64,000 nucleotides of DNA from contig JAGQWM010000002.1 in assembly GCA_020437365.1 (NCBI GenBank), forward strand, positions 1-64,000, in the 5' to 3' direction. Both the position numbers and the translations under genes were made by a program. The stretch comes from Chitinophagaceae bacterium. GTDB lineage: Bacteria; Bacteroidota; Bacteroidia; Chitinophagales; Chitinophagaceae. How positions within the stretch are numbered: position 1 is the stretch's first letter; each line of letters starts with the position of its first letter. Below are positions 52,467-63,461 of the stretch, piece after piece. The notes beneath the pieces are model-generated. The model was not told where the DNA came from and ran no database searches. It was given only the letters and a program-made list of their open reading frames with translations.

Positions 52467-54191
52467 TTATAAGCAGTCCTGTACATACTGTTTTTTCTTA
52501 GGTTTATTAGGATTAGGAATAACGGTTTTTACCACAATGGGTTTAAAATTACCATTACTGTCTTTTTTGTGCAATGTAATCCCTGTATTAAAAGAATTTA
52601 ATACCGCTGCCATGGCCATTTCATAAGCAAGATTTTCTTTGTTTGTATTATTTTTATACTCTTTTCGAAAGTATTTTTTTGCCTCATCAAATTCCTTCCC
52701 GATAAGAGAGCTTTCTTTCCATCCATTTGTAGCAGTATCTAAAAATGAACTTTTAGTGTTAAAAAAGGTAGCTGCTTTATCATAATCCGTAATACTAATA
52801 GCATATTGACTATTATCGGAGGCAGCAACAAAACTCCCTTCAAAATGTGAATCTCCGTACAATTTGTTGTTTAGAAAACTGTACAAATCGTTAGCAGAAT
52901 GGGCGGCATAACCATTTGGAGGATGTGTATGCAGCATTGCAGCCCACAGATACAAGTACGGAATATTGGCTATTATGAGAATATGGTTACTGTCTCCTGT
53001 TTGTACTGCGTCTGATTTGTAAATATCTGTAAACGTAGTATCTGTTACGTCATTTGGATTTACCATAAACTTTTGATAAATCGGAAATCCTTTTTCTAAA
53101 GGCTCAGTGGCAAGATTAGGGATTGTATTTAATACTGAATCTGCTTTGCTTAATGTATAAATAGAATCCATTTTTTTAGCGGAAACCTTTGCGATATCAC
53201 AAGGATCTGTTGAAGACGGAGGCGGCTCCTCCTCAATAGGAATCGGCTCCCAGCCGGGGCCGCAGGTATTATTGATGGCTGTCCGGTTGCCTTCAGTAGG
53301 GTTTCCATTACAATCACCCGGTGTGCCGTCGCCATTTTCGCCGCCACCGGTGGCGCCGCCATCGCCTCCGGAGCCATCACCTGTACCACCTCCACCACCA
53401 CCACCCGGGTCGCCACCTATACCACCAGTACCTTCATAAAGTATTGTGCAAATTTCTTCAGAATGGTCATATAAATCACAATCTTCCGTACAATATCCTC
53501 CACAATGATTTTGATATTCTTCTGGTGTTCCATAACATACATCGTATATAGTGCATGTCTCTACGGTAACATAGTTCGAGACTTTATTTGCTTTTTTTTC
53601 ATCAATTTCTGGTTGTTTTATTTTCACTACGGGAAATCTCCCGTTTCCCGGATTACCAAATAGTTGCGGGTCAGTTATTTTGAACATTATTCTATCAAAA
53701 ACAGCATAATCAAACTTTGAAAATAAATGGAAAACGTCTTTTGCATTCCATGTATTACTTGTTGTATCATATCCAAAACGACTATATTGCCAGTCGCACA
53801 GATAATTAAAAATTGTATCAGAAAAGCTACTCTGTATAATCATCGTTGCGTTTACATAATTCTGTGAATCTCTTACAAAAGGAATATAAGTAATGGTAGT
53901 ACTGTCAGCCGAATTGCCTTTGCCTGCTGTGGCGAGTTTTGCAAAAGAAAGGGCTTTATCCCACCTAGGATATCCAATGCGGCTTACCGTTTTTTCTACA
54001 AAATGCAAGGTGTCATTTGTTCTTTGCAAAAAACCATTCAATGCCTTTACAAGAGGCTCGGTTGATGCATGATTATTGAAGAACTTTTCTTCTACACTGT
54101 TGTTATTATTTCCGGTTATGGGCGGTTGCATGAGTTTATCTGTTTTGCGGCAGCCGTTTACCACTACAGCCGCCGCTATACAGACAATCAA
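52467..54191 (-). CDS. polymorphic secreted lipoprotein-type protein with C-terminal JAMM/JAB metalloprotease domain (start codon damaged)
   Basis: 574 codons read from a TTG. The N-terminus has a hydrophobic signal and lipobox VVVNGC (Cys14), then a region shared with the 55177 protein up to about residue 80. A Cys-rich stretch (about 213-248), a Gly-rich linker (about 253-292) and NRTAINNTCGPGW (302-314) follow. After that the sequence is unrelated to the paralogue and holds HTHP-x7-SxxD (His421, His423, Ser432, Asp435), a JAMM zinc signature; Glu363 or Glu366 could be the upstream Glu. The ATG used by the paralogue is followed here by a 1-base deletion, giving an immediate stop, so the gene may be silent or the base miscalled. 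Confidence 0.75.
   Translation of the reverse strand: MIVCIAAAVVVNGCRKTDKLMQPPITGNNNNSVEEKFFNNHASTEPLVKALNGFLQRTNDTLHFVEKTVSRIGYPRWDKALSFAKLATAGKGNSADSTTITYIPFVRDSQNYVNATMIIQSSFSDTIFNYLCDWQYSRFGYDTTSNTWNAKDVFHLFSKFDYAVFDRIMFKITDPQLFGNPGNGRFPVVKIKQPEIDEKKANKVSNYVTVETCTIYDVCYGTPEEYQNHCGGYCTEDCDLYDHSEEICTILYEGTGGIGGDPGGGGGGGTGDGSGGDGGATGGGENGDGTPGDCNGNPTEGNRTAINNTCGPGWEPIPIEEEPPPSSTDPCDIAKVSAKKMDSIYTLSKADSVLNTIPNLATEPLEKGFPIYQKFMVNPNDVTDTTFTDIYKSDAVQTGDSNHILIIANIPYLYLWAAMLHTHPPNGYAAHSANDLYSFLNNKLYGDSHFEGSFVAASDNSQYAISITDYDKAATFFNTKSSFLDTATNGWKESSLIGKEFDEAKKYFRKEYKNNTNKENLAYEMAMAAVLNSFNTGITLHKKDSNGNFKPIVVKTVIPNPNKPKKKQYVQDCL
53250..53414 (-). repeat. linker repeat, copy A (near-identical to 55978-56139)
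   Basis: DNA encoding the Gly-rich linker and NRTAINNTCGPGW is almost identical between the two large proteins, more so than the sequence before it, and homology stops just after it. This is the pattern expected if the segment guides recombination that swaps C-terminal domains. Confidence 0.8.
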
Positions 54192-54604: not shown

Positions 54605-55177
54605 CTATAATTTTTCTATTAATTCTATAATTTGAATAAATTTCTTCCTTTCTTCAGAATATGGGCAATACTCTAAAGCAAGGTAAGGGTTGCGATAGAT
54701 TAAAACATTTTTCTTTTTATTGAACTTATATTCCAATTTAAAAACAGGGATATCTTCAGTTAAAGAAAAATCTTTTATTTCAGAAACTTCTTTTCCTTTT
54801 ATTATTGAATCTTTCGTAGTGACACATTTATATTCTAATTCTGATTCATCCGGAAATTGTAATAAGCCCATGGCTAGAATATTTTTTATTACATTTTCAC
54901 AAGCAGGACAATTTTTCATCTCAATTTTTTGGCCATTCGATCGTATTTTTTCATGTAGGTATTTTACATTCCATTCATTTTCATTATTACCTACAATAAT
55001 TGTCGGCGGTTTGATAGGGTAAAGATTGTTTACCGAAAGCACAATTATTGAATCATATTGATTTTCAAATGCTTTGAAAGTATCTGAAAATACTTTATTG
55101 TTATTGATTTTTGAAGTACAACACCCTTGTATTAAAATTAGAAGGATGATTATTTTCAATGGTTTTATGAATCTCAT
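54605..55177 (-). CDS. lipoprotein, immunity-like partner of the zincin-domain protein
   Basis: 190 residues from the ATG at 55177, whose A is the last base of the preceding stop (TAATG); an ATG 9 nt upstream, inside the previous gene, is also possible. N-terminus MRFIKPLKIIILLILIQGC is a lipoprotein signal (LIQGC), followed by CTSKINNN. The mature part has NCPACENVIKNIL and a C-terminal YCPYSEERKKFIQI. It is visibly more AT-rich than the core genes. No family recognised. Overlap with the large gene implies strict co-translation, as with toxin and immunity genes. Confidence 0.75.
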   Translation of the reverse strand: MRFIKPLKIIILLILIQGCCTSKINNNKVFSDTFKAFENQYDSIIVLSVNNLYPIKPPTIIVGNNENEWNVKYLHEKIRSNGQKIEMKNCPACENVIKNILAMGLLQFPDESELEYKCVTTKDSIIKGKEVSEIKDFSLTEDIPVFKLEYKFNKKKNVLIYRNPYLALEYCPYSEERKKFIQIIELIEKL

Positions 55178-56946
55178 TATTGGCATTTATCCTTTGATGC
55201 AGCTAGTGGTGTTGCGTTTAATTCTGCTGTAATTATTACTTTATACATTTGTGCTGTAGCAGAATCAGTTGCTTCAAAATCTTTCCATGATTTTGTGATA
55301 TAACTATTTATATCTCCTGTAAGTCCAGCCCATGCTAATGCAGTATAATATGTGTCAATATCTAAATTTGGATATAAACTACGAATATTTGTTAAATCGG
55401 AATCTGAAATTAACTTATATTCTTTTAAAGCATTTGCAATTTGTGTTACAAAAGATGCAGCCATTTGTTCATGTTGATTCCCATATGTTGAGTTTGGTGC
55501 ATTTGGGTCATATGGTTTTAAAAAGCCTAATTCATTGGCTAGATTTTCTTCTTTTACAGAATCTCCATTTGCTTCAAATGAGCGATAAAAGAAATAAGCA
55601 TGAATCATCTCATGAATAATTGTATGAGCAATTGAAAGTTTTGTTGAATTCGCAAGATGAGTCGGACTTATTTTAATAGTGACATTTAAATATGCCAGTT
55701 CACCAGATGTACCGTTTATTGTATAGTAACCAGGAATAACAGATGTGTTACCGGGGTTGTTTAAAGTAGGGTCTACTAAGAAGTTAAGGTTAAATTTTGT
55801 GGATTGAGAAAACAAATTCTGAATTAATCCTATTGTAGAATTGTTTAAGTTCACTACATTCGTTGCAATAGTCTTGGTGCAAGGGTAATCATTTAACCCT
55901 GTAAGATCAATTTTATAATCAGGTTGTGAATTAAACCAAGCTTCATCATGTACAATCGGCTCATCCTCAATCGGCACCCAACCCGGGCCGCAAGTATTAT
56001 TAATTGCTGTGCGGTTGCCTTCAGTAGGGTTTCCATTACAATCACCCGGTGTGCCGTCGCCATTTTCGCCGCCACCGGTTGCTCCGCCATCGCCTCCGGA
56101 GCCATCACCTGTACCACCACCACCACCGGGATCACCTCCAGGAAAGGTTGTACAATATAAATAACTATAACACCAGGGCGGTCCTTGACAATTTAAATAA
56201 TCACATCCACCATGAGCATTACAATACTCCGGACTACCACAATGTATAGCAACCACACATTCTTGGTTTGTATTTGTTGTAGTCCTTCCGTACGTTCCGT
56301 TTGAATCCAAAAGTGTAATTTTTAAAAACTCATTATTATCCATTCTTGGAGATGAATCAAACAAAAGAGTATCAGTAATATAGAATTGTGATTGTCCTGT
56401 TGTGAGTTTACTAAAATACATAAAAAACAAAGCCAGATTCTCAGCTGTGCTATCTACAACTTGATTTGAATAAGGGAATTGAGAATATTGCCAATCGCAA
56501 ACGTATTGAAAACTTGTGTCAATTGTTGTTGTTTCCACAATCATAGATGCATTCACAACATTTTCCGAATCTCTTACAAATGGAATATAAGTTAAAGTAA
56601 CACTGTCGCCGGAAGCATCACGACTGGTTACATTATTATTTTTAAGTTTTATAATTGCTTTATCCCACCTCGGATAGCCTATGCGGCTCACCGTTTTTTC
56701 TACAAAATGCAGGGTATCATTTGTTCTTTGCAAAAAACCATTCAATGCCTTTACAAGAGGCTCCGTTGATGTATGATTATTGAAGAACTTTTCTTCTACG
56801 CTGTTGTTGTTATTATTTGTATTTACAGGAGTTTCCACGAGTTTATCTGTTTTGCGGCAGCCGTTTACCACCACAGCCGCCGATATACAGACAATCAAAA
56901 TAGTGGTAAGTGTTGCAAACCGCCCGGTGAAATCTATTTTTCTCAT
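55177..56946 (-). CDS. polymorphic secreted lipoprotein-type protein with C-terminal zincin (HExxH) domain
   Basis: 589 residues from ATG at 56946 (MRKIDFTGRFATL). The longer frame upstream lacks an ATG. Signal and lipobox VVVNGC place the lipidated Cys at about residue 30. The N-terminal module (SVEEKFFNNH, TEPLVKALNGFLQR, VSRIGYPRWDKA), the Cys-rich part (about 230-266), the Gly linker and NRTAINNTCGPGW match the 52467 protein. The C-terminal ~250 residues are unrelated to it and carry IIHEMIHAYFFYR (His445, Glu446, His449) and NQHEQMAASF, whose His (about 492) could be the third zinc ligand. It is translationally coupled to a lipoprotein gene. Confidence 0.85.
   Translation of the reverse strand: MRKIDFTGRFATLTTILIVCISAAVVVNGCRKTDKLVETPVNTNNNNNSVEEKFFNNHTSTEPLVKALNGFLQRTNDTLHFVEKTVSRIGYPRWDKAIIKLKNNNVTSRDASGDSVTLTYIPFVRDSENVVNASMIVETTTIDTSFQYVCDWQYSQFPYSNQVVDSTAENLALFFMYFSKLTTGQSQFYITDTLLFDSSPRMDNNEFLKITLLDSNGTYGRTTTNTNQECVVAIHCGSPEYCNAHGGCDYLNCQGPPWCYSYLYCTTFPGGDPGGGGGTGDGSGGDGGATGGGENGDGTPGDCNGNPTEGNRTAINNTCGPGWVPIEDEPIVHDEAWFNSQPDYKIDLTGLNDYPCTKTIATNVVNLNNSTIGLIQNLFSQSTKFNLNFLVDPTLNNPGNTSVIPGYYTINGTSGELAYLNVTIKISPTHLANSTKLSIAHTIIHEMIHAYFFYRSFEANGDSVKEENLANELGFLKPYDPNAPNSTYGNQHEQMAASFVTQIANALKEYKLISDSDLTNIRSLYPNLDIDTYYTALAWAGLTGDINSYITKSWKDFEATDSATAQMYKVIITAELNATPLAASKDKCQ
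55978..56139 (-). repeat. linker repeat, copy B
   Basis: Partner of 53250-53414: Gly-rich linker plus the conserved NRTAINNTCGPGW motif. The two proteins become unrelated within about ten codons after it. Confidence 0.8.
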
Positions 56947-57004
56947 AGCATTTAATTCAGGAAATAAATGAATTGGTTTTCGGTACAACCCGGATGTAAA
57001 GAGG
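56659..57004 (-). repeat. 5' repeat, copy B
   Basis: Partner of 53955-54296: upstream region, signal peptide, lipobox and first conserved block of the large protein, with an intact start codon. Confidence 0.8.
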
Positions 57005-57348: not shown

Positions 57349-58005
57349 ATGAGTACGGAAACGATAAAAGTCGCCATTGCCGACGACCATAAAATATTCA
57401 GGGACGGCATTCGCATGGCGTTAAAAGAAAAAGAATACCTCCAAATTCTTTGGGAAGCCGAAGACGGTAAAGACCTTCAGCATAAACTGAAATTAAAACT
57501 CCCCGACGTTATCTTGATGGATATTCGTATGCCGGAAGTGGACGGCATTAATGCCATCAGCATGATTCGTAAAGAATACGAATCGCTTAAAATCATTGTC
57601 CTTACAATGTACGATGACAAAGAAATGATTACAAAAATGATGGAAATGGGAGCCAATGCTTATTTGACCAAAACGACCGACCCGGACGAAATTTACCAGG
57701 CTATTATGAGTTGCGTGAAAGATGATTTTTATTTCAATGAATTGGTCAATAAAGCCGTGCTGTTGAAATTACAACACAAAAAAAATGTAAGGCAGTTTTA
57801 TCCCAACCCGGTAAAATTTTCCGAAAAGGAAATAAAAATATTGAAACTGATTGCTGAAGACAAAACTACAGTGGAAATTTCGAAGGAAGTTTTTTTAAGT
57901 CCGCGAACCATTGAAACCATTCGGCAAAACATGAAACAAAAAGTAGGTTCCAAAACAATTGCCGGCCTGGTGATGTATGCCATGCGCAATAAAATCCTGG
58001 AATAA
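57349..58005 (+). CDS. NarL/FixJ-type response regulator (orphan 1)
   Basis: 218 residues. Receiver: AIADDHKIFRDGI (acidic pair), DVILMDIRMPEVDG (phosphoacceptor Asp), VLTMYDD and AYLTKTTDP (Lys). HTH: FSEKEIKILKLIAEDKTTVE and SPRTIETIRQNMKQKVGSK. No kinase gene is adjacent. It closely resembles the regulator at 59328, with the same HTH ending (AGLVMYA), so the two are recent paralogues and may share a kinase encoded elsewhere. Confidence 0.9.
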   Translation: MSTETIKVAIADDHKIFRDGIRMALKEKEYLQILWEAEDGKDLQHKLKLKLPDVILMDIRMPEVDGINAISMIRKEYESLKIIVLTMYDDKEMITKMMEMGANAYLTKTTDPDEIYQAIMSCVKDDFYFNELVNKAVLLKLQHKKNVRQFYPNPVKFSEKEIKILKLIAEDKTTVEISKEVFLSPRTIETIRQNMKQKVGSKTIAGLVMYAMRNKILE

Positions 58006-58055: not shown

Positions 58056-58799
58056 ATGTCAAATATCAACGATACTTATTTCGATGGTTATTATAAAGAA
58101 ATTTGGCGTTCAGTAATGCCTGCCCGGCTTACCGACAATGAAATAAAATTTTTAGAAACGTATTTCAAATTATCGGCCAATAGTAGTGTACTTGACTTGA
58201 TGTGTGGCTACGGCCGCCATGCCTTAGCATTGTCCCGCAAAGGAATTTCTGTTACAGCAGTTGATAATCTTGCAGCATATATTGATGAAATAAAAACAAC
58301 GGCTGCCAACGAAAAATTAACAATACAAGCACAACAAAAAAATGTATTGGAGTTCAATGCCAGTGAAGATTTCGACCTAGCTATTTGCATGGGCAATAGT
58401 TTTAATTTTTTTGCAAGGCCTGATGCAGAAAGATTATTGCAAATCATGACGAATGCTTTAAAACCCGGTGGCCATCTGCTTATCAATTCTTGGTCCGTTG
58501 CCGAAATTCAATATGCCAATCCACTCAGAAATAATTGGAAACGAATCGATGAAAAACTCTTTTTAAATGAATTTAGTTTTCAATTACATCCTTCCCGGGT
58601 AGAAGCTGTTAGTACAATTCTTTTACCGGATGGTACAAAAGAAGAAAAAAAAGGAGTTGATTATATCTATTCACTCAATGAAATGGAAGACATGATAAAA
58701 GCGGTCGGTTGCGACATGCGTGATGTGTTCTCCATTCCCGGAAGTAAGTCTTTCCAGCCCGGCGATCCGATTGTATATATAGTAGCAGTAAAAAAATAA
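58056..58799 (+). CDS. class I SAM-dependent methyltransferase
   Basis: 247 residues. Motif I SVLDLMCGYGRHALALSRKG, motif II VTAVDNLAAYIDEI, motif IV FDLAICMGNSFNFF and post motif LKPGGHLLINSW. It is the generic methyltransferase domain with an unusual insert after it (LHPSRVEAVSTILLPDGTKE). Substrate unknown. It follows the regulator gene by 50 nt on the same strand and may be co-transcribed with it. Confidence 0.8.
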   Translation: MSNINDTYFDGYYKEIWRSVMPARLTDNEIKFLETYFKLSANSSVLDLMCGYGRHALALSRKGISVTAVDNLAAYIDEIKTTAANEKLTIQAQQKNVLEFNASEDFDLAICMGNSFNFFARPDAERLLQIMTNALKPGGHLLINSWSVAEIQYANPLRNNWKRIDEKLFLNEFSFQLHPSRVEAVSTILLPDGTKEEKKGVDYIYSLNEMEDMIKAVGCDMRDVFSIPGSKSFQPGDPIVYIVAVKK

Positions 58800-58827
58800 A
58801 AAACCCCGGCGTTATGAAGACCGGGGT
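58789..58827 (-). terminator. hairpin terminator, strongest on the minus strand
   Basis: ACCCCGG (58803-58809) and CCGGGGT (58821-58827) form a perfect 7-bp stem. The T run (TTTTTTATTTTTTT) lies on the minus-strand side, so it would end a minus-strand transcript arriving from about 59.08 kb. On the plus strand there is no T run after it. Confidence 0.65.
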
Positions 58828-58935
58828 AACGTTACTGTTATGAAAAGAAAAATTTGAATGTTCCCATACACTTAACTCATTCTTTTCAGTTGGTATTGGA
58901 TTTTAAAAACGGAATGTATTGTTAAATAATTTTTT

Positions 58936-59078
58936 TAAAAATCAGAAAGTTGAAAGACAGTTGAAGTGTTCCCGATAAAGATCGGGTGTGTTCTTCATAG
59001 GTATTTGAAAATTCATTCTGGACGGTTTGGACATTGAACAAGACGGACAAACAGATCAATCATGTCAATCAACTTTCA
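58936..59078 (-). ncRNA. candidate structured non-coding RNA (~145 nt, 6S-like fold)
   Basis: The 528-nt region between the methyltransferase and the next regulator has no credible gene. On the minus strand a good promoter (59083-59113) is followed at once by a sequence whose ends pair: complement of 59069-59081 with complement of 58941-58953, 12 of 13 positions. Inside, GACA/TGTC and TTGA/TCAA continue the stem, and a perfect CCCGAT-CTTT-ATCGGG hairpin (58971-58986) sits on the 3' side. A T run follows the 3' arm. Closing stem, open middle and 3'-side hairpin recall 6S RNA, but I cannot confirm the family. Confidence 0.5.
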
Positions 59079-59082
59079 GATA

Positions 59083-59113
59083 CAAATGTATAGGCTGCTG
59101 TATATGTTAACAA
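59083..59113 (-). promoter_or_regulatory. promoter of the candidate ncRNA: -7 TACATTTG, -33 TTG
   Basis: On the minus strand TTG (complement of 59111-59113) and TACATTTG (complement of 59083-59090) are 20 nt apart, the same arrangement as the metH promoter. No coding region follows. Confidence 0.6.
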
Positions 59114-59238
59114 GAGGATAACTGCCCTTTTTAAACCTTATGGTATTTACTCAAGTACATCGTAAAAATTCTTCTCGACTTCGTAAACTTTCGATATTCA
59201 ATGCGTAAGATGGTAATTTCCGCAATATTGAAATTAGG

Positions 59239-59327: not shown

Positions 59328-60002
59328 ATGAAAAACTCCGATTCTAACAATGTAATTAAAGTCGCTATTGCCGACGACCACGCCGTGTTTCGTTCGGGTA
59401 TTAAAACTTCACTCGGCTTTCGTAAAGACATACAATTAGTTGCTGAAGCAGAAAATGGTATGCAATTGCTGAATTTATTGAAGCACATTAAACCCGATGT
59501 AGTTTTACTCGATATCCAAATGCCGGTGATGGATGGTTTTACGACCTTACCCGAAATCAAAAAACTGTATCCTGACGTAAAAGTTATTATGCTTTCCTTC
59601 ATGGTCGATCATTCAGTGATTTCTAAAATGATGGAAGTAGGTGCCAATTCTTATTTAACCAAAGAAGCCGGTGCCGATAAAATCTGCGATGCTATTATTG
59701 GCGTGTACGAAAATGAATTTCATTTCAATGAAATGACCAATAAAGCCTTACTCGATGGATTAAGAACCAAGCGTACTATCGAATCCAGTATGCCACAGGA
59801 CGTTGACCTGAATGATAAAGAAGTGAAAATCCTGAAACTTATGTGCGATGAAAAAACAACCAAAGAAATTGCCGACATCGTACAACTAAGCCCAAGAACA
59901 ATTGAAGCTATTCGGGACAAATTAAAAACCAAAACCGGTACCAAATCTATGGCCGGCCTGGTGATGTATGCCGTAAAATCAGGATTAGTAGAACAAGATT
60001 AA
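59328..60002 (+). CDS. NarL/FixJ-type response regulator (orphan 2)
   Basis: 224 residues. Receiver: AIADDHAVFRSGI, DVVLLDIQMPVMDG (phosphoacceptor Asp), VIMLSFMVD and SYLTKEAGADK (Lys). HTH: LNDKEVKILKLMCDEKTTKE and SPRTIEAIRDKLKTKTGTK, ending AGLVMYAVKSG. Paralogue of 57349. No kinase next to it. One copy of the operator motif shared with the 38-41 kb two-component operon lies upstream. Confidence 0.9.
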   Translation: MKNSDSNNVIKVAIADDHAVFRSGIKTSLGFRKDIQLVAEAENGMQLLNLLKHIKPDVVLLDIQMPVMDGFTTLPEIKKLYPDVKVIMLSFMVDHSVISKMMEVGANSYLTKEAGADKICDAIIGVYENEFHFNEMTNKALLDGLRTKRTIESSMPQDVDLNDKEVKILKLMCDEKTTKEIADIVQLSPRTIEAIRDKLKTKTGTKSMAGLVMYAVKSGLVEQD

Positions 60003-62571: not shown

Positions 62572-62982
62572 ATGGTTTACTTAACCCGATCAGAACATTT
62601 CAATGCGGCACATAAACTTTTCAACCCGAATTGGAGTATCGAGAAAAATGAAGCAGTCTTTGGCAAATGTGCCAATCAAAACTGGCATGGACATAATTAT
62701 GAATTGTTGATAACTGTAAAAGGTGCACCGGATTCGGATACCGGTTTTGTATTTGATGTAAAACAACTCAGTCACCTAATCCGGGAATACGTTATTGAAC
62801 AAATAGACCATAAAAACCTGAATATGGATGTGCCTTTTATGAAAAATAAAATGTGCAGTACCGAAAACCTGGCTATGGCCATTTGGCAGGAACTGGCACC
62901 TCATTTGCCGGGCTCTGTTCAATTGCATTGTATCAAACTGTATGAAACGCCAAGAATATATGTTGAATACTATGGCGAATAA
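62572..62982 (+). CDS. 6-pyruvoyl-tetrahydropterin synthase / QueD family, copy 1
   Basis: 136 residues. Zinc ligands: His in HFNAAHKL and two in WHGHNYEL; the catalytic Cys lies in FGKCANQNWHGH, five residues before HGH, the spacing of eukaryote-type PTPS rather than CxxxHGH of E. coli QueD. DHKNLNMDVP and ETPRIYVEY supply the Asp-His and Glu. The family makes 6-pyruvoyl-tetrahydropterin or 6-carboxy-tetrahydropterin from dihydroneopterin triphosphate. It lies in a row with a second copy and folE. Confidence 0.88.
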   Translation: MVYLTRSEHFNAAHKLFNPNWSIEKNEAVFGKCANQNWHGHNYELLITVKGAPDSDTGFVFDVKQLSHLIREYVIEQIDHKNLNMDVPFMKNKMCSTENLAMAIWQELAPHLPGSVQLHCIKLYETPRIYVEYYGE

Positions 62983-63044: not shown

Positions 63045-63461
63045 ATGAATCAAAAAGTCGCCGTTTACAGAAAAGAACATTTTAACGCAGCACATCGTCT
63101 TTTTAATCCTGATTGGGATGATAAAAAGAACGAAGAAGTTTTTGGTAAATGTGCTTTGCCGCATTACCATGGTCATAATTATGAGTTGGAAGTAAAAATT
63201 GTGGGTGTGCCCAATCCTGAAACCGGCTATGTGTACGACCTGAAAAAGTTAAGTGATTTAGTGGAAGATGAAATCCTGGCAAGGTTCGATCATAAAAACC
63301 TGAATGTGGATACTGAAGAATTTAAAACCTTGAATCCAACGGCAGAAAATATTGCAATCGTCATTTATCATTTGTTAAGAAAAAAAATTGACAATGCATT
63401 GGATTTACAAATCCGCTTGTATGAAACACCAAGAAATTTTGTAGAATATCCTGTATCTTAA
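63045..63461 (+). CDS. 6-pyruvoyl-tetrahydropterin synthase / QueD family, copy 2
   Basis: 138 residues, about half identical to copy 1, 62 nt downstream. [36 protein letters not shown] and ETPRNFVEY show the same complete set of zinc and catalytic residues. It differs in the middle ([17 protein letters not shown]). Two full copies suggest separate products, for example queuosine precursor and tetrahydrobiopterin-type pterin. Confidence 0.88.

Follow-up and report, generated by a model that had tools for sequence, protein, structure and literature searches.

A UCC-repeat small RNA family, often encoded beside a NarL-type response regulator gene, as a possible multi-site decoy in Bacteroidota

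The Gac/Rsm pathway uses three small RNAs, RsmX, RsmY and RsmZ, whose several unpaired GGA motifs titrate RsmA and which have a palindromic upstream site in common (PMC2375449, PMC7911923). With CsrB and CsrC they make up the decoys of CsrA/RsmA, and their activator, GacA/UvrY, is of the NarL type. The FopS sibling sRNAs of Bacteroides act by pairing, and RRM proteins take the part of global RNA binders in Bacteroidota, as is known for one from Bacteroides (PMC11697453). 6S RNAs, also known in Bacteroides and Flavobacterium (PMC7366714, PMC9723704), sequester RNA polymerase by means of a closed stem and a bubble that mimics the open promoter.

The locus studied here lies on the minus strand of the window, by which we mean the whole stretch of 64,000 nucleotides analysed. 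The evidence as a whole is best explained by an independent regulatory RNA, some 280 nt long, that belongs to a paralogous sRNA family. This family, the UCC-repeat RNAs, is absent from Rfam 15, no Rfam match was found in 20 loci carrying its members and no description of it was found in the literature searched; the suggestion in the original prediction that the RNA could represent a new family is supported. The features of the locus are as follows.

59328..60002, plus strand: NarL/LuxR-type response regulator gene (Response_reg and GerE domains), divergent from the RNA; from Pfam, synteny and co-occurrence.
59142..59168, minus strand: upstream site 1, an imperfect TTTAC-N10-GTAAA dyad and proposed response-regulator operator; conservation in 100 promoters.
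59113..59128, minus strand: upstream site 2, AGGGCAGTTATCCTCT, overlapping the -33 element; conservation in 100 promoters.
59083..59113, minus strand: Bacteroidota-type promoter, TTG (59113-59111), a 20-nt spacer and TACATTTG (59090-59083); from the sequence and the spacing in homologues.
58938..59082, minus strand: 5' domain of the small RNA; covariance-model match (R1, E 8e-25, the window sequence being a training sequence of the model) and alignments A1 and A3.
59063..59080, minus strand: 5' arm of the closing stem P1 (AUCUGAAAGUUGA..GACA); fold and covariation.
59018..59048, minus strand: loop UCC motifs UGUCCG, AAUGUCC and ACCGUCCAGAA (+36, +52, +61); near-invariant columns of A1 and enrichment.
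58971..58986, minus strand: perfect 6-bp GC hairpin, CCCGAU-CUUU-AUCGGG, optional; alignment A1.
58941..58959, minus strand: 3' arm of P1 (UGUC..UCAACUUUCUGAU); fold and covariation.
58885..58915, minus strand: 3' tail with further UCC motifs (CAUUCCGUUUUUAAAAUCCAAUACC); alignment and sense-strand UCC density past the stem.
58797..58829, minus strand: probable true terminator, ACCCCGGUC..CGCCGGGGUUUUUU; fold of -14 kcal/mol, z -2.8, and terminator scan.
57349..58005, plus strand: paralogous response regulator; Pfam.

The minus-strand promoter that had been proposed, a TTG separated by 20 nt from TACATTTG, is present and leads into non-coding DNA: no ORF of at least 60 aa spans the intergenic gap that holds the RNA in the window, and the longest sense ORF in the homologues has a median length of 35 aa. 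Among 100 homologous promoters, 82 have a TTG-to-TANNTTTG spacing of exactly 20. An ungapped alignment of 100 copies was anchored on the -7 element, which is therefore conserved by construction. Upstream the conserved positions are TTTACGA and GTAAATACCG, which form the imperfect TTTAC-N10-GTAAA dyad of site 1; the others are AAAAT, GGGCA and TGCTCTTG overlapping the -33 element, and TANNTTTG. The GTAAATACC half of site 1 is kept in about 100 copies, the family consensus of site 2 is AGAGCA-NNNN-TGCTCT, and the pairing symmetry of both sites is partial (54-63% complementary positions). Since one upstream consensus is common to 59 copies linked to a regulator gene and 41 unlinked copies, the two sites go with the RNA and are not a property of the divergent gene alone. 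A response regulator may bind at site 1. A DnaA-box-like element (TGTCCACA, TGTGGATA or a near form) was also seen between the -33 and -7 elements in at most one third of the family promoters, sometimes as an inverted pair (for example at L021, L024 and L154).

The first 13 bases of the RNA had been predicted to find their pairing partner some 130 nt further downstream, and AUCUGAAAGUUGA does pair with UCAACUUUCUGAU at 12 of 13 positions; GACA/UGUC continue the stem directly inside this pairing, and the T run expected after the structure is found as U5 at 58941-58937. The minimum free energy is -35.3 kcal/mol, compared with -24.3+-3.2 in dinucleotide shuffles (z -3.43; none of 200 as low), and the 5' end of the RNA is expected near the GAAGUUGAUUG arm. 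A DNA search of 197 relatives was followed by alignment of the best loci, in which the stem is nearly invariant (GAAAGUUGAUUG / CAAUCAACUUUC); among the 30 closest sequences the stem shows too little variation for more than weak covariation. Alignment of a more diverse set did reveal the compensatory changes that had been proposed as a check: in 57 diverse members, double-change cells in P1 number 31, whereas shuffles give 11.4+-2.5 and none of 500 reaches 31. Of the P1 cells, 93.5% are paired, against at most 51% with a slid partner. Moreover, the outer end of P1 shows a compensating one-base shift, with GA/UC in 29 cases and AG/CU in 30, and 2 and 7 crossed combinations. Covariation and the compensating shift together make the stem very likely a real RNA helix, and comparison of the sequences shows a 5' domain built as a loop closed by a covarying stem of 12-15 bp. 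Promoter and stem recur, with mostly constant spacing and with covariation, in about 100 homologous loci, which is more than chance would give and which supports the claim that a structured RNA is encoded here, with a closing stem and a promoter of its own.

Other elements of the fold are less general. The internal 6-bp hairpin that had been described is present on the 3' side in the window; it is missing in many homologues and so is not part of the family core. A second hairpin, P2 (GGAUGA/UCAUCC), is paired in 85% of cells of the regulator-linked set with little covariation; it was rejected as a family-wide element, being retained in one subgroup only while other copies carry a different local hairpin instead.

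The interval first marked, 58936-59113, holds the structure described but takes in no more than the 5' half of the likely gene. The terminator scan places the terminator of the window copy at +279, where it is bidirectional with a convergent methyltransferase gene, and finds first strong intrinsic terminators at 55 of 100 loci, at a median position of +302. The density of UCC on the sense strand is elevated to about +300, especially in copies not linked to a regulator, and this together with the terminator at +279 indicates that the gene is probably about 280 nt long, twice the marked length. The 3' tail is conserved in most homologues from the same genus. The U run that follows the stem may yield a shorter form of the RNA, of some 140 nt.

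A covariance model built from 30 sequences detected the RNA in 52 of the 197 relatives, with 1-5 copies in each and 2-5 in many, and all 52 fall within the window's own bacterial family; a second, broader model used for a phylum-wide scan was positive in 7 of 395 genomes, again only in that family. Copies adjoining regulator orthologues were found in Paraflavitalea, Flavihumibacter and a Flavisolibacter MAG, all of them Chitinophagaceae, which suggests that the Chitinophagaceae are the host family of the RNA. The window's genome has one detectable copy, no second one being found either in the window or elsewhere in that genome, and the RNA was not detected in small genomes of the same genus.

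Within the RNA, the conserved loop motifs in the alignment of the best loci are AAUGUCC, ACCGUCCAGAAAG and UUCCAAUUCCUUUGAAAAACC. The interiors of the family RNAs contain 399 UCCA, against 119+-9.5 in dinucleotide shuffles (3.4-fold), 83 ACCGUCC, against 0.8 expected, and 543 UCC, against 344, while GGA is found 72 times (66+-6 in shuffles), or about 0.7 per RNA. Across most of the RNA, GGA occurs at 1-5 per kb, compared with a later baseline of 9-15. UCC is unpaired in a fraction of 0.72, compared with 0.60 for other interior bases, and distances between successive UCC peak at 7 (86 cases) and 6 (52) over a background of about 25, so that the typical arrangement is UCC-N4-UCC. Of the longer pattern UCCAANRUCC the RNAs contain 73 copies in sense orientation and none in antisense; many of its other occurrences are a short way downstream, again on the strand of the RNA. 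Sequence comparison shows that the loop and 3' tail carry many UCC motifs, mostly unpaired, and avoid GGA. The window copy is itself motif-poor, with 5 UCC in 285 nt. Four members reached through a promoter-pattern search (L259, L260, L261 and L263) have the same promoter and 7-12 UCC without the usual closing stem; since they keep promoter and array, these two look like the core of the family. In G153 the reversed control pattern of the promoter hit 40 times, which suggests a dispersed repeat.

Many RNA copies are divergent from an orthologue of the 59328 or the 57349 regulator, and others lie in unrelated places, for instance between a cystathionine beta-synthase-like and a BtuF-like gene (names by sequence reading). 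Orthologues of the 59328 regulator that are 67-83% identical adjoin homologous RNA copies, and the 57349 orthologue also has a divergent RNA copy in several relatives. Among the first 69 genomes of the bacterial family, an orthologue of the 59328 regulator is present in 36 of the 36 that have the RNA (one of them broken) and in 4 of the 33 that lack it (Fisher p 1.7e-15, from counts that ignore shared ancestry). The link is not only physical, because G045 has the regulator with no recognisable RNA copy beside it, its detected copies lying elsewhere. Four small genomes of the same genus (G007, G014, G036 and G040; loci L266-L269) keep the regulator orthologue and have no detectable RNA, and upstream of their regulator no promoter or array of the UCC-repeat type was found.

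Two further gene pairs were seen in the window. On the minus strand, 52467-54191 and 55177-56988, separated by a small gene, encode proteins that are nearly identical in the N-terminal part and in a glycine-rich middle (a VVVNGCRKTDK start and a GGDPGGGGG linker) and differ in their C-terminal parts, one weakly SprT-like; they look like a modular exported protein pair. On the plus strand, 62572-62982 and 63045-63461 encode two neighbouring proteins that resemble each other (EHFNAAH..GKC..HGHNYEL), apparently 6-pyruvoyl-tetrahydropterin synthase/QueD paralogues in tandem.

The UCC-repeat RNAs resemble CsrB/CsrC and RsmX/RsmY/RsmZ in being multicopy and in their repeated short unpaired motifs, and perhaps also in a shared palindromic upstream sequence tied to a NarL-type response regulator. 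They differ in that the motif is UCC and not GGA, which is avoided, in the covarying closing stem and in a regulator gene that is often adjacent and divergent. Moreover, CsrA was detected in none of 115 genomes searched, with positive controls, the genomes that carry the RNA included; Hfq was likewise searched for in these genomes and not detected, and the RNA was accordingly rejected as a client of either protein. Since both the GGA motif and CsrA are absent, the UCC-repeat RNA is not a member of the CsrB/RsmY group, although it may work like one. We put at about one half the chance that it is a multi-site decoy of that kind, with UCC in place of GGA, under response-regulator control. A NarL-type regulator, often divergently encoded, would activate the RNA promoters; the RNAs would build up and sequester a UCC-recognising RNA-binding partner, so freeing the mRNA targets of the partner, with the dose set by copy number and array length, as in RsmX/Y/Z and CsrB/C. 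Counting against this reading are the motif-poor and apparently single copy of the window's genome and the four small genomes in which the regulator occurs and no RNA was detected.

Base pairing to mRNAs or to sibling sRNAs, in the manner of a Qrr- or FopS-like family, is a serious rival and a distinct possibility, held at clearly less than even confidence. The loop motifs ACCGUCCAGAA and UCCAAUGUCC would then be seeds for GGA-containing mRNAs or other sRNAs, and long conserved, mostly unpaired loop sequences in multiple siblings could equally well be read in this way; the FopS siblings do pair in Bacteroides (PMC11697453). Like FopS, which is associated with the RRM protein RbpB, the UCC-repeat RNAs are paralogous Bacteroidota sRNAs. 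Unlike them, FopS (RF04319) has a 71-nt model with a 5' single strand and a terminator hairpin. That model matches 58879-58939 of the window on the plus strand, opposite to the RNA, at 17.4 bits (E 4), far below the cut-off of 56, and a FopS-like sRNA on that strand was rejected, the stretch being the antisense of the conserved tail. Given this weak match, a FopS-like seed might pair with the tail; the tail motif AAAUCCAAUACC is similar to the complement of the FopS model's 5' part (GGUAUUAGAUUUAAGG), a possible sign of RNA-RNA pairing. The remaining Rfam matches below threshold (DsrA, a CRISPR repeat and snoR35) were taken as chance. Against base pairing, no target was found here, and many short repeats of a single motif, differing in number and in spacing, would sooner be expected of a protein decoy than of one seed.

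A decoy for the termination factor Rho would fit an unstructured, C-rich and G-poor RNA resembling rut sites, and the interior is indeed 26% C, 12.6% G and mostly unpaired; however, the motif is specific (UCC-A at a spacing of 6-7 nt) and not a general YC richness, which leaves this reading very unlikely. We consider it highly improbable that the RNA is a cis-acting leader or attenuator, since, although some unlinked copies are followed by a gene in the same orientation (the BtuF-like one, for example), in the window and at many homologues a convergent gene comes next, downstream genes vary between copies and strong terminators intervene near +300. The original suggestion of a 6S RNA is the least probable of all and finds no support beyond a similar outline (closing stem, length or 5'-domain size, strong promoter): RF00013, with which 6S was recovered in the controls, matched nothing in 70 genomes, and RF01685 (6S-Flavo) had no match in any genome of the window's bacterial family, while the UCC-repeat RNA is found in 1-5 copies in one bacterial family and not in few copies with broad conservation, its interior is a largely unstructured array, stemless members exist and, with only the closing stem conserved throughout, there is no conserved bubble between two conserved stems.

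For the multi-site decoy, an RRM-domain protein would be the likeliest partner of the UCC array. RRM proteins are encoded in all 43 genomes of the bacterial family that were scanned, and since these include genomes that lack the RNA, their presence does not discriminate and was set aside as uninformative for co-distribution. In seven genomes (G018, G020, G027, G031, G035, G037 and G041) an RRM-domain gene shares a contig with the RNA, roughly 20-30 kb away from the closest copy, a possible loose synteny with the suspected partner. The wider proposal, that the Chitinophagaceae have an independent Gac/Rsm-like decoy system made of a NarL-type regulator, up to five or more RNAs and a global RNA-binding protein that reads UCC, with neither CsrA nor Hfq, is possible and put forward tentatively. 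Outside the gut genera, next to nothing is known of post-transcriptional control in Bacteroidota, and its usual hubs, CsrA and Hfq, were not found here; the UCC array offers a usable bait for an RNA-binding hub, and the upstream sites a handle on the signal. If confirmed, the system would be a clear example of the CsrB/RsmY logic having evolved convergently.
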